DNA of 64,000 bases from Rhizobium sp. ASV8. Its GTDB lineage: Bacteria > Pseudomonadota > Alphaproteobacteria > Rhizobiales > Rhizobiaceae. This document shows, one piece after another, positions 37,728-46,261 of this stretch. Where the stretch lies: positions 1-64,000 of the forward strand of contig NZ_JAELUG010000009.1 of NCBI RefSeq assembly GCF_016429255.1. Reading direction: 5' to 3'. The number at the start of each line of letters is the position of its first letter. Within the stretch, counting starts at the first letter, position 1. The notes beneath the pieces were generated by a model. The model was given only the letters and a program-made list of their open reading frames with translations, searched no databases and had not been told where the DNA came from. A program made the position numbers and the translations under genes.

Positions 37728-37777
37728 TTGAGACTCGCAAAGTTAGACCATAAAGTGGCGATGTTCAATTTTTGTTC
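37728..37777 (+). promoter_or_regulatory. dinB promoter with LexA (SOS) box
   Basis: Promoter TTGAGA (37728-37733), 17-base spacer, TAAAGT (37751-37756), then the alphaproteobacterial LexA box GTTC-aattttt-GTTC (37763-37777) at the expected transcription start. The box ends 7 bases before the dinB ATG at 37785. Confidence 0.8.
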
Positions 37778-41792: not shown

Positions 41793-44700
41793 CTAGACAA
41801 GCTCGACATCGATGACACCCGGTGCCGTGCGCAATGCGGCCGCGATTTCCGGCGTGATGCGGTACTTCTCCGGAAGCGCCACCTCGACCTCACGCGAACC
41901 TTCCTCCTTGATAACGATGAAGGAGACCAGGCCATCGCCCTTGGCGTTCAGATGCGCAGCGACCGCCTTAAGCGGCCCTGCATCGCGGATGTAGACGCGC
42001 AGCGCCTTCTGCATCTGCAGCGATTTCTCCTCCAAGGACTGTGCCGTCTGCAGACGCAGGCTGATGCCTTCCGGCCGCTCGTCCGCCTGAGCGGTGATCA
42101 CGAAGGATTTGCCGACTTCCAGGACGTCGCGATACTGATTGAGCACTTCGGAGAAGAGCACGGCTTCGAACTGGCCGGAAGCGTCCGAGAAGACAAAGAT
42201 GCCCATCTTGTTGCCGGTGCGGGTCTTGCGCTCCTGCTTGGAGATCACCGTACCGGCCAAGCGGCCGTTGCCCGCGCCCCGCTTCACCGCCGCCGAGAAA
42301 TCGGCAAAGGGCTGCACGCGCATCTTGTCGAGCACGCTCTTGTATGTGTCGAGCGGATGGGCGGTCAGATAAAAGCCGAGCACCTGGAATTCGCGCAGCA
42401 GGCGCTCCGAGGCGAGCCATGGGGTATAGGGAGGGAACGAGATCTTCTCAGGCCCGGAGGCAGCGCTTCCGAACATATCGTGCTGGCCGCTGCGCTTGTT
42501 TTCCTGCGCCACCTGCGCATAGCCCATGATGCGATCCAAGCCGGCGATCAGCTGGGCGCGGTCGATCTCGAAGCAATCGAAGGCGCCGGCGCAGATCAGG
42601 CTTTCCAGAACGCGGCGATTGATCTGCTTTGGATCGATGCGCAGGCAGAAATCCTCGATGCCCGCAAACGGCTGATCGCCCCGCACTTCGACGATGTGTT
42701 CGACCGCGGATTCGCCGACACCCTTGATGGCGGCCAGCGCGTAATAAATGCGGTTTTCACCGGTCTGGAAATGACGGAACGACGTCTGGACCGATGGTGC
42801 GATGACCTCGATTCCGAGGCGCTTGGCATCCTGACGGAAATCGTTGACCTTTTCGGTGTTCGCCATATCGAGCGTCATCGACGCTGCCAGGAACTCCACC
42901 GGGAAATGCGCCTTCATATAGGCGGTCTGGTAGGAGACGATGGCGTAGGCCGCCGCGTGCGACTTGTTGAAGCCGTAGTTGGCGAACTTGGCGAGCAGAT
43001 CGAAGATAACGTCCGACTGCCCCTTAGACACACCGTTCTTGACGGCGCCATCGACGAAACGCTCGCGCTGCTGGTCCATCTCCGCCTTGATCTTCTTACC
43101 CATGGCGCGGCGCAGAAGGTCGGCTTCGCCGAGCGAATAACCCGAGAGAACCTGGGCGACCTGCATCACCTGTTCCTGGTAGACGATAACGCCCTGCGTC
43201 TCTTTCAGCAGGTAATCGATCTTCGGGTGGATCGATTCGATCTCCTCCTCGCCATGCTTGCGGGCATTATAGACCGGGATGTTTTCCATCGGACCGGGAC
43301 GATAGAGCGCCACGAGCGCGATGATGTCCTCGATGCAGTCGGGGCGCATACCGATGAGTGCCTTGCGCATGCCGGCACTTTCCACCTGGAACACGCCGAC
43401 CGTTTCGCCGCGCGAAAGCATCTCATAACTCGGCGTGTCGTCGAGCGGGATGCTAGCGAGATCGATCGAGATGCCACGCTTGGCGACGAAATCGACGGCC
43501 GTTTTCAACACCGTCAGCGTCTTCAGGCCGAGGAAGTCGAACTTCACGAGGCCGGCCTGCTCCACCCATTTCATGTTGAATTGGGTGACCGGCATGTCGG
43601 AGCGCGGATCGCGATACATCGGCACCAGCTTCGACAGCGGACGATCGCCGATAACGATACCGGCCGCGTGCGTCGAGGCGTGGCGGTAGAGACCCTCGAT
43701 CTTCTGAGCGATATCGAGAAGGCGGGCGACAACCGGCTCCTTGTCCGCCTCCTCCTGCAGACGCGGCTCCTCCTCGATCGCCTTGCTGAGCGGCGTAGGA
43801 TTGGCGGGATTGTTCGGCACCAGCTTGCAGATCTTGTCGACCTGGCCGTAGGGCATTTCCAGCACGCGGCCAACGTCGCGAAGAGCGGCGCGCGCCTGAA
43901 GCGAACCGAAAGTGATGATCTGAGCCACCTGCTCGCGGCCATATTTGGCCTGCACGTATCGGATCACCTCTTCGCGGCGATCCTGACAGAAGTCGATGTC
44001 GAAGTCCGGCATCGAGACGCGTTCCGGATTGAGGAAGCGCTCGAACAGCAGCGAGAAACGCAGAGGATCGACATCGGTGATCGTCAAAGCATAGGCGACC
44101 AGCGAGCCCGCACCCGAGCCGCGGCCCGGGCCGACCGGAATATCGTGCCGCTTGGCCCACTTGATGAAGTCGGCAACGATCAGGAAGTAGCCGGGGAATT
44201 TCATGCGCTCGATGACGCTGAGTTCGAACTCCAGCCGGTCGCGATATTCCTTTTCCTCGTAACCAGGCGCCATGCCGAGCGAGGCCAGGCGTTGGTCCAG
44301 ACCTTCAACCGCCTGAGCACGCAGTTCCGCCGACTCGGCGCGTTCCGCCTCTTCGGCATCATCCGTCGCGCCGGTGAAGCGCGGCAGGATCGGCTTACGG
44401 GTCTTCAGAACGAAGGAGCAGCGCCGGGCGATCTCGACAGAGTTTTCCAGCGCTTCGGGTAGGTTGGCGAAGAGCTTGGCCATGTCGGCCCGGCTCTTGA
44501 GGTAATGATCGGGCGTCAGGCGGAAACGCGTGTCGTCGGAGACGATGGCGTTATGGGCGACCGCCATCAGCGCATCATGTGCATCATAGTCGTCACGCGT
44601 CGGGAAAAAGGCTTCGTTGGTGGCGACCAGCGGAAGCTCATGCTCATAAGCCAGGTTAAGCATCTTGTGTTCGTGGCGGCGGTCATAGGTGCCATGACGC

Positions 44701-45290
44701 TGCAATTCGACATAGAGCCTGTCGCCGAACAGTCGCTTGAGCGTCAGAAGCCTGGAGAGCGCTTGCGGGGCATGCCCGTCTTTCAAAGCCATATCGACCG
44801 GTCCGCCCAGGGAGCCGGTAAGAGCGATCATGCCCTCTGTGCCGATCTCTTCCAGCCAGGACGTCGTGACGTGAACGGCACTATTGCCTTCTCCGCCAAG
44901 GTAGGCGCGGCTGACGAGATCGACGAGGCGTTCATAACCCTGTTCGGTTGCAGCGAGCAGGACGATGGAAGGAAGCTTGGCAAGAGCCTGCTGCGGCCCA
45001 CGCTTCTCGCCCTCGCCGCCATCTTCCATGTCGATCGACACCTGGCAGCCGATGATCGGCTGCAAACCCTCGTCCATCGCCTTCTGCGAGAATTCCAGGG
45101 CGACAAACAGATTGTTGGTATCGGTAATGGCGATCGCGGGCTGCTTGTCGGCGGCCGCCTTTGCCAACACCTTCTTGAGCGGCAGGGCGCCTTCCAGCAA
45201 AGAATAGGCCGAATGAACACGAAGGTGGACGAATTCCGGCAGGCCATCGATCGGCGCAACCTCTACACCGCTGCTACCCGTATCCGCCAT
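41793..45290 (-). CDS. dnaE: DNA polymerase III alpha subunit
   Basis: A 1165-residue replicative polymerase. An N-terminal PHP domain (FVHLRVHSAYSLLEGALPL, then IAITDTNNLFVALEF), the palm with the catalytic acids in PDFDIDFCQDRREEV, GPGRGSGAGSLVAYALTITDVDP, the helix-hairpin-helix region FANYGFNKSHAAAYA, and a C-terminal OB domain (GRLAGTVISKQERKTRTGNKM). The length fits the essential DnaE1, not DnaE2. It is a monocistronic gene; the divergent region 45291-45644 has a LexA box, but it is aligned with a small gene rather than with dnaE. Confidence 0.97.
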   Translation of the reverse strand: MADTGSSGVEVAPIDGLPEFVHLRVHSAYSLLEGALPLKKVLAKAAADKQPAIAITDTNNLFVALEFSQKAMDEGLQPIIGCQVSIDMEDGGEGEKRGPQQALAKLPSIVLLAATEQGYERLVDLVSRAYLGGEGNSAVHVTTSWLEEIGTEGMIALTGSLGGPVDMALKDGHAPQALSRLLTLKRLFGDRLYVELQRHGTYDRRHEHKMLNLAYEHELPLVATNEAFFPTRDDYDAHDALMAVAHNAIVSDDTRFRLTPDHYLKSRADMAKLFANLPEALENSVEIARRCSFVLKTRKPILPRFTGATDDAEEAERAESAELRAQAVEGLDQRLASLGMAPGYEEKEYRDRLEFELSVIERMKFPGYFLIVADFIKWAKRHDIPVGPGRGSGAGSLVAYALTITDVDPLRFSLLFERFLNPERVSMPDFDIDFCQDRREEVIRYVQAKYGREQVAQIITFGSLQARAALRDVGRVLEMPYGQVDKICKLVPNNPANPTPLSKAIEEEPRLQEEADKEPVVARLLDIAQKIEGLYRHASTHAAGIVIGDRPLSKLVPMYRDPRSDMPVTQFNMKWVEQAGLVKFDFLGLKTLTVLKTAVDFVAKRGISIDLASIPLDDTPSYEMLSRGETVGVFQVESAGMRKALIGMRPDCIEDIIALVALYRPGPMENIPVYNARKHGEEEIESIHPKIDYLLKETQGVIVYQEQVMQVAQVLSGYSLGEADLLRRAMGKKIKAEMDQQRERFVDGAVKNGVSKGQSDVIFDLLAKFANYGFNKSHAAAYAIVSYQTAYMKAHFPVEFLAASMTLDMANTEKVNDFRQDAKRLGIEVIAPSVQTSFRHFQTGENRIYYALAAIKGVGESAVEHIVEVRGDQPFAGIEDFCLRIDPKQINRRVLESLICAGAFDCFEIDRAQLIAGLDRIMGYAQVAQENKRSGQHDMFGSAASGPEKISFPPYTPWLASERLLREFQVLGFYLTAHPLDTYKSVLDKMRVQPFADFSAAVKRGAGNGRLAGTVISKQERKTRTGNKMGIFVFSDASGQFEAVLFSEVLNQYRDVLEVGKSFVITAQADERPEGISLRLQTAQSLEEKSLQMQKALRVYIRDAGPLKAVAAHLNAKGDGLVSFIVIKEEGSREVEVALPEKYRITPEIAAALRTAPGVIDVELV

Positions 45291-45406
45291 TTCGTACCCT
45301 TCCGCATGCTAAGATGAATCGGCGGTATTTTCGACATTGCGGAAGACAAAGTCCAGAAGTTGCTCCCGCTAAATACGGAAGCAGCATGTGCATACAGAGA
45401 TAAAAC

Positions 45407-45493
45407 TCACATCGCCATCATGATGAGAGAAAAGCTGGCAACGAACATCACGATGGAGGTGAATGCTGCAACGTCTCGAATGATATCGGTCAT
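45407..45493 (-). CDS. 28-residue SOS-controlled membrane peptide (SidA-like in layout)
   Basis: A 28-codon ORF, ATG at 45491-45493 and TGA at 45407-45409. AAGGAG lies 7 bases upstream of the ATG, among the strongest ribosome binding sites in the window. The peptide starts MTDIIRDVAAF and its remaining 17 residues (TSIVMFVASF..., ending MMAM) form one hydrophobic membrane span. The promoter contains a LexA box in its spacer. In Caulobacter, SidA is a 29-residue SOS-induced inner-membrane inhibitor of FtsW/FtsN-dependent division; this one shares size, topology and regulation, but I cannot show sequence homology. Confidence 0.75.
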   Translation of the reverse strand: MTDIIRDVAAFTSIVMFVASFSLIMMAM

Positions 45494-45526
45494 TTACGCG
45501 CTCCTTACTCGTTATGTTTCTTATTT

Positions 45527-45550
45527 GTTCTATTTTTGTTCGGGAGTCAA
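45527..45550 (-). promoter_or_regulatory. LexA box inside the promoter of the 28-residue peptide
   Basis: The minus strand has TTGACT (45550-45545), a 17-base spacer and CAAATA (-10 like, 45527-45522). The LexA box GAAC-aaaaata-GAAC (GTTC-N7-GTTC at 45527-45541 on the plus strand) sits in the spacer. It is 34 bases from the peptide ATG and about 103 from the plus-strand gene at 45645. Confidence 0.75.
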
Positions 45551-45644: not shown

Positions 45645-46238
45645 ATGAAGTCACTTGCCTGCGCGCTCATTCTTCTTACGGCTGCAAGTACTGCTCATGC
45701 GGAGGACGCCAGCCCGCCGGGCCGCATCATCGATGCGGCGATCGGCGACTGGAACAAGGACGGCAAGCCGGATCTCGCGCTTCTGGCGGCCCCGCCTGCG
45801 GGCGATGACGCCGACAACCCGATCGGCATCTATATCTATCTGCGCGATGACGAACACTCCTTGCTAAAACTGGTCGCAAGCGCACCGCACAAGATATGGG
45901 GCAGCGTGGAGCCCGGCGGTATCGTCGGACAGGAACCGTCGATCTCGGCGTTGCCGAATGGTTCCATCTCCATCGTCTCACAGAACGACAGTATCGGGCG
46001 CGATCGCTGGACGCAGACATTGACGCTCGCCTATCGCAATAACAGCTTCGTTGTCGCAGGCTATACCTACGAATCCCATGACACGCTCAATCCCGAGGAA
46101 AGCCACAGCTGCGACTACAACGTGCTGACCGGCAAGGTGACGAAAGACGGCAAGAACCTGAAGGCGGAAGCCCTGAACGTCACCATCCAGGACTGGCAGG
46201 ATGATGTCGGTCAGAAGGCGTGCGATAGCGGCAAGTAG
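45645..46238 (+). CDS. Exported protein with FG-GAP-like calcium motif
   Basis: A 197-residue protein with signal peptide (MKSLACALILLTAASTAHA). Just after it is IDAAIGDWNKDGKPDLALL, an FG-GAP/VCBS-like D-x-N-x-D-G-x-x-D calcium-binding motif. The rest is beta-rich with no other recognisable motif; three cysteines (one in the signal, two at 165 and 194 approx.) are present. It is probably periplasmic, function unknown. GGAGAGAAC precedes the ATG. It is divergent from the 28-residue peptide and followed by the SOS-box DUF5680 gene. Confidence 0.8.
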   Translation: MKSLACALILLTAASTAHAEDASPPGRIIDAAIGDWNKDGKPDLALLAAPPAGDDADNPIGIYIYLRDDEHSLLKLVASAPHKIWGSVEPGGIVGQEPSISALPNGSISIVSQNDSIGRDRWTQTLTLAYRNNSFVVAGYTYESHDTLNPEESHSCDYNVLTGKVTKDGKNLKAEALNVTIQDWQDDVGQKACDSGK

Positions 46239-46246
46239 TCGCCAAT

Positions 46247-46261
46247 GTTCTCTTTTTGTTC
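46247..46261 (+). promoter_or_regulatory. LexA (SOS) box upstream of the DUF5680 gene
   Basis: GTTC-tcttttt-GTTC, the alphaproteobacterial LexA box with exact 7-base spacing, lies 56 bases upstream of the ATG at 46318 and 9 bases after the stop of the previous gene. Confidence 0.75.

Follow-up and report, generated by a model that had tools for sequence, protein, structure and literature searches.

A predicted 28-residue membrane peptide encoded behind a LexA box upstream of dnaE in Rhizobium is a probable orthologue of Caulobacter SidA

Is the short ORF behind a LexA box upstream of dnaE in Rhizobium sp. ASV8 a genuine gene, and does its product correspond to SidA of Caulobacter, which is reported to be a 29-aa SOS-induced inner-membrane division inhibitor acting on FtsW (PMC4211646)? 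We analyzed this locus in the window, that is, the whole 64,000-nucleotide stretch of contig NZ_JAELUG010000009.1 (positions 1 to 64,000), and in related genomes. We consider it highly probable that the ORF is the rhizobial sidA orthologue and encodes a LexA-controlled, DNA-damage-induced membrane peptide, most likely one that stalls the divisome. The features of the locus are as follows, where counts refer to the 57 loci described below.

45545..45550, minus strand: -35 element TTGACT of the presumed LexA-controlled promoter (TTGAC in 57 of 57 loci)
45527..45541, minus strand: LexA box GAACAAAAATAGAAC (plus strand, GTTCTATTTTTGTTC) of the form GAAC-N7-GAAC (plus strand, GTTC-N7-GTTC), exact in 54 of 57 loci
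45516..45519, minus strand: third half-site AAAC at the next 11-bp period past the box, presumably extending the operator
45501..45506, minus strand: ribosome-binding site AAGGAG with the ATG 7 nt further on (from the sequence; strict pattern in 56 of 57 loci)
45407..45493, minus strand: ORF of 28 codons, not counting its TGA stop, for the SidA-type peptide MTDIIRDVAAFTSIVMFVASFSLIMMAM (ORF reading and conservation)
45327..45356, minus strand: possible separate dnaE promoter CTGGAC-N18-GAAAAT in the gap between the peptide gene and dnaE (a weak, putative element)
41793..45290, minus strand: dnaE (dnaE1), the replicative DNA polymerase III alpha subunit gene and downstream neighbour (domain and family matches)

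From promoter to gene, the order on the minus strand is TTGACT, the LexA box, the AAAC half-site, AAGGAG, the 28-codon ORF, and dnaE, with 116 bp separating the ORF from dnaE on the same strand. The preliminary description of this DNA, made from the letters alone, had proposed a 28-codon ORF with a well-spaced AAGGAG and a single hydrophobic span. The 7-nt distance from AAGGAG to the ATG bears out the former, and a hydropathy computation bears out the latter, with a best 19-residue mean of 2.2 from residue 8. The peptide has a net charge of -1 and matched no family in Pfam and NCBIfam. The box had also been placed within the spacer of the TTGACT promoter; it is exact and follows TTGACT, but with a 17-nt spacer its last base overlaps the presumed -10 hexamer. 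In essentials, the earlier reading of the window element is correct. In the gap between the ORF and dnaE, a 15-sequence alignment has an invariant GAC within TGGAC and several invariant A positions amid less conserved surroundings, and CTGGAC-N18-GAAAAT may be dnaE's own promoter.

A lone exact LexA box is weak evidence, being near chance. The window holds four exact boxes against 1.78 expected, a number reached by 10 of 100 shuffles, and the pattern occurs 223 times genome-wide versus 207 for the reversed pattern. Since a single box is near chance, conservation is the deciding evidence. In the genus, each of the 37 genomes searched, the window's own among them, encodes the peptide, and the family search gave a candidate match in 159 of 297 genomes at E up to 10, many of these matches being weak. 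The 57 loci examined were the best-scoring matches of the genus and family searches, and the set is therefore biased to near relatives. In every one of them the ORF is exactly 28 codons long from ATG and lies downstream of TTGAC, which is also invariant in the 15-sequence alignment. The purine-rich ribosome site fails the strict pattern only in L029, and the three loci without an exact LexA box (L054-L056) have one base altered in one half-site.

The operator may frequently extend beyond a single box. Three half-sites with an 11-bp period (RAAC-N7-RAAC-N7-RAAC) are found in 54 of the 57 loci, and 11 loci carry two exact overlapping boxes with one half-site in common (GAAC-N7-GAAC-N7-GAAC). The overlapping-box loci include L031, L034, L035, L040, and L047, where the boxes lie 36-49 bp before the peptide start. 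The overlapping arrangement in these 11 loci and in Sinorhizobium meliloti (L248) suggests room for two LexA dimers. Across 52 different ORF sequences, which encode 32 different proteins, the mean pN/pS is 0.28, which indicates that the peptide sequence is under purifying selection. In the 15-sequence alignment, mean column identity is 0.83 in the ORF, 0.75 in the promoter, 0.66 in the gap between the ORF and dnaE, and 0.48 far upstream. Conservation among relatives had been named beforehand as the test of the gene, and frame, start, length, box, promoter, and neighbour are conserved in the loci examined. The peptide gene is real.

The neighbour is as constant as the ORF itself: all 57 loci have dnaE downstream in the same orientation, at 72-197 bp as measured to dnaE starts taken from the alignment. 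Named rhizobial records show the same arrangement: among 22 plasmid-collection records with a match, three were opened and all three were positive. S. meliloti Ak57 (CP090106.1) encodes MADFVRDLAAFASMSLFIVSISVIALGL in 28 codons, with TTGAC and two exact overlapping LexA boxes, 150 bp before the annotated dnaE; no gene is annotated at the ORF in this record, the gene table of which is incomplete. An exact box also accompanies the 28-codon versions found before dnaE in Sinorhizobium sp. M103 and Shinella sp. PSBB067. The nearest records of this collection, from Shinella and Sinorhizobium (Rhizobiaceae), show about 80-81% identity over 70-72% of 24 kb. The records CP090106.1 (3.7 Mb, titled pSymB), NZ_CP069303.1, and NZ_CP104127.1 are filed as plasmids of 3.5-4.6 Mb, and they look like chromosomes because of their size and the dnaE, proS, and nuo genes present in at least CP090106.1.

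The corresponding position in Caulobacteraceae is also occupied by a short ORF. Caulobacteraceae genomes were located with a CtrA query sequence, to which the CtrA of one genome (G813) is 100% identical. A scan with the N-terminus of the G813 dnaE product led to Caulobacter vibrioides DSM 9893 (L192), and both genomes carry the same 29-codon ORF before dnaE; in DSM 9893 it has the exact box GAACATCTTGTGAAC and ends 35 bp before dnaE. We strongly infer from its length, box, and locus order that the L192 ORF is SidA. We take sidA to be CC1927, adjoining dnaE. Published locus tags are CCNA_02004 for sidA (PMC10769358) and CC1926 for Caulobacter dnaE (PMC1839093).

Among the 28 loci with a dnaE product at least 70% identical (L192-L219), titled mostly Caulobacter, Phenylobacterium, and Brevundimonas and in three cases merely 'Proteobacteria' or 'Pseudomonadota', a SidA-like ORF is present in 26 and an exact box in 25. 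In this set, the sequence upstream of dnaE in L201 (42 bp) and L202 (137 bp) is too short for a box to show, L211 has a box and no ORF by the filter, and L207 and L209 belong to one genome. Neither the ORF nor the box was found in 11 remoter loci (L220-L230) from Dongia, Rhodospirillaceae, Cypionkella, Pseudorhodobacter, and others, which include a Mycoplana dnaE-type gene (L230) that is 26% identical and probably not dnaE1. In the Caulobacteraceae loci read from 22 of 24 genomes (all except G739 and G745), the ORF was found in 19 of 22, one of them from TTG alone, and the exact box in 12 of 22.

We then compared the two peptide families as profiles. The rhizobial set A1 comprises 20 of the 57 loci, and the Caulobacteraceae set A2 comprises 18 peptides, excluding L177 (30 aa) and L186 (26 codons from TTG); a set A3 of 22 was picked by hand, and A4 has 15 sequences. 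hhalign aligned A1 with A2 over 19 columns, both from Met1, with a probability of 86.6% and an E value of 4.5e-6. When all columns of A2 were shuffled 20,000 times, the in-register score was reached twice, and sliding by 1 to 4 columns never reached it. Shuffling of the core with residues 1-7 left in place gave as high a score in 417 of 20,000 cases, and much of the signal thus comes from the N-terminal patch and the shared register. Part of the peptide similarity is hydrophobic composition. The A1 profile alone found no confident match in the 384 other class genomes (385 searched, own included; best E 0.005). Homology to other families therefore leans on position, register, and box.

At the residue level, the window peptide and the C. 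vibrioides ORF have in common M1, R6, A10, S13, F17, V18, and an acidic residue at position 7, in a gap-free register from Met1 with one hydrophobic span. Both genes have an exact LexA box upstream and precede dnaE on the same strand, and the lengths agree within one residue. The two differ in length (28 residues in the window peptide and 29 in SidA), in a FVA motif of the window peptide in place of FVW in Caulobacter, in net charge (-1 versus +1), and in the gap to dnaE (116 bp versus 35 bp). The likeness to SidA proposed in the preliminary description is thus supported by the place before dnaE, as in C. vibrioides, and by peptide families in register. Because of this common place and register, orthology replaces mere resemblance.

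Ribosome profiling of S. meliloti 2011 offers a further view of this position. That study reports a translated sORF25 in the 5'-UTR of dnaE1, and the section on it gives no function; the terms LexA and SOS do not occur in the text, and the authors suggest a regulatory role for 5'-UTR sORFs (PMC10117765). The place of this small translated ORF, before dnaE1, is also that of the 28-aa orthologue. Since the 28-aa orthologue sits before dnaE in S. meliloti Ak57, the S. meliloti peptide is probably sORF25, an identity by position, and the present analysis suggests a function for this profiled ORF.

An ORF in such a place could be a leader, the translation of which regulates dnaE while the peptide has no job of its own. 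The position before dnaE in 57 of 57 loci and the report of sORF25 in the dnaE1 5'-UTR (PMC10117765) are what a leader ORF would predict, but a leader does not explain why the peptide itself is under purifying selection (pN/pS 0.28), why 28-29 residues are kept across two families, or why the operator is of the LexA type. In addition, the gap to dnaE is 72-197 bp long and less conserved than the ORF (0.66 versus 0.83), and the Caulobacter counterpart is reported as a proven division inhibitor (PMC4211646). With the ORF more conserved than the gap, we judge the leader explanation unlikely.

The peptide could also be a different sort of small SOS-induced membrane peptide, for example a DinQ-like membrane toxin rather than a divisome inhibitor. 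In E. coli, the SOS gene product DinQ is reported to be a toxic peptide that spans the inner membrane once (PMC3567139), and size, single span, and LexA-type control suit both kinds; it is the orthology with the Caulobacteraceae peptide, in position and in sequence, that argues for the inhibitor and makes a DinQ-like toxin very improbable. That a chance ORF stands behind a chance LexA box, as the near-chance frequency of the box alone might allow, has a negligible probability and is refuted by the length, frame, start, promoter, box, and neighbour conserved in the examined loci.

For the sidA orthologue, we propose that LexA would silence the promoter via one box, or two overlapping boxes, between the -35 element and the transcription start. 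Upon DNA damage, RecA would become active and LexA would be cleaved, so that the 28-aa peptide would be made and would insert as a single helix in the inner membrane, where it would most likely stall the assembled divisome at the FtsW/FtsI/FtsN step, like Caulobacter SidA. The arrest would prevent septation over broken chromosomes. By orthology, SOS-induced division arrest at FtsW/FtsN seems likely in rhizobia. Consistent with LexA-type control in this genome, an exact box precedes the domain match of its lexA by about 60 bp; no exact box lies close to its recA, the one at that locus standing about 670 bp ahead of the domain match.

SulA, YneA, SosA, and DidA resemble the proposed peptide as small damage-induced division blockers. 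YneA is reported to act at FtsW (PMC13396833), and DidA is described as a 71-aa, SOS-independent protein (PMC4211646). SulA differs in that its domain (PF03846) was found in 0 of 41 genomes searched, own included, while E. coli among the 14 controls matched.

The FtsW substitution A31K is reported to suppress SidA specifically in Caulobacter (PMC4211646). With residues counted by eye, position 31 of FtsW is Ala in Caulobacter G813, Leu in the window genome and its congener G018, Thr in G345 and G295, and Ala in G080 and G168; of the 13 loci in this comparison, three that yielded no protein and L235, which yielded a wrong one, were set aside, and the counts do not include G282. The Ala31 of Caulobacter FtsW is thus Leu in the window genome, a further difference from the SidA system. 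A single FtsW/RodA-type match was found in 7 of 7 family genomes, and two in 3 of 3 other genomes. Cells of the rhizobial family may have no such enzyme besides FtsW, and an FtsW inhibitor may therefore act on their sole enzyme of this type.

To what extent does the arrangement reach beyond these two families? A class survey took one genome per family, 60 in all, from the 90 genomes besides the window's own that had a dnaE-type match; one of the 60 is Caulobacteraceae-like, and a few had short stretches (L094, L120, L143). An exact LexA box lies within 500 bp upstream of dnaE in 11 of 60 families, versus 0 to 2 of 60 for control patterns (reversed, scrambled, and other spacings), and no exact box was found there in the other 49. 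A short hydrophobic ORF stands between box and dnaE in 10 of the 11 boxed families (10 of 60 overall); the one in L107 is under the survey's hydropathy cut and was recognised on closer reading of the locus. Seven of these ten ORFs, read by eye, have an N-terminal pair of a basic residue or Gln and an acidic residue, as in the window peptide. The boxed short hydrophobic ORFs before dnaE in L125, L091, and L090 lack the SidA basic-acidic pair, and would represent either highly diverged SidA or substitutes that occupy its position.

Within the rhizobial family, 138 genomes had no match in the first search, and 19 of the 20 tried gave a dnaE locus. A SidA-like ORF stands behind an exact box in six of the 19 and without an exact box in a seventh; the other 12 have neither ORF nor exact box at dnaE. 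These diverged versions bridge the rhizobial and Caulobacteraceae peptides. Judged by orthology, the window peptide belongs to the SidA family, which appears to be spread more widely in the class than described in the papers found.

The constant link to dnaE raises the question of whether the replicative polymerase is itself raised in the SOS response. As sORF25 lies in a 5'-UTR, the annotated dnaE1 transcript covers the ORF, and dnaE may therefore be partly LexA-controlled. More tentatively, and with rather less than even confidence, we suggest that sidA together with dnaE is an ancient SOS unit of the Alphaproteobacteria, in which the LexA-controlled transcript continues into dnaE and SidA is the ancestral checkpoint of much of the class. 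If so, one switch would halt division and raise the replicative polymerase, and SidA would be no Caulobacter speciality, having been overlooked since genes of only 28-40 codons escape annotation. The peptide gene of the window is of this type that annotation misses.

Our literature search found no named rhizobial gene for SOS division arrest and no SidA relatives outside Caulobacter; SidA was reportedly first described in a 2011 paper, and an earlier mention of relatives in that paper or in a 2004 comparative LexA study is possible. Rhizobia thus gain a testable candidate checkpoint gene, with orthologues at a fixed address from the LexA-type operator to dnaE.

Other genes in the window also follow LexA boxes. 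A DUF5680 gene (PF18931; 46318-46785, plus strand) has a second box 71 bp upstream (46247-46261). The gene was found in 29 of the 57 fetched loci, and 28 of these retain the box, which makes the gene a candidate for SOS control. The box GTTCAATTTTTGTTC (37763-37777) lies just before a DinB-type polymerase gene (PF00817; 37785-39074, plus strand). With this box added, three of the window's four exact boxes precede likely SOS genes within 9 kb. The gene divergent from the peptide gene (45645-46238, plus strand) has a weak FG-GAP-repeat similarity below the Pfam cut-off, and a relative is present in 29 of the 57 fetched loci.
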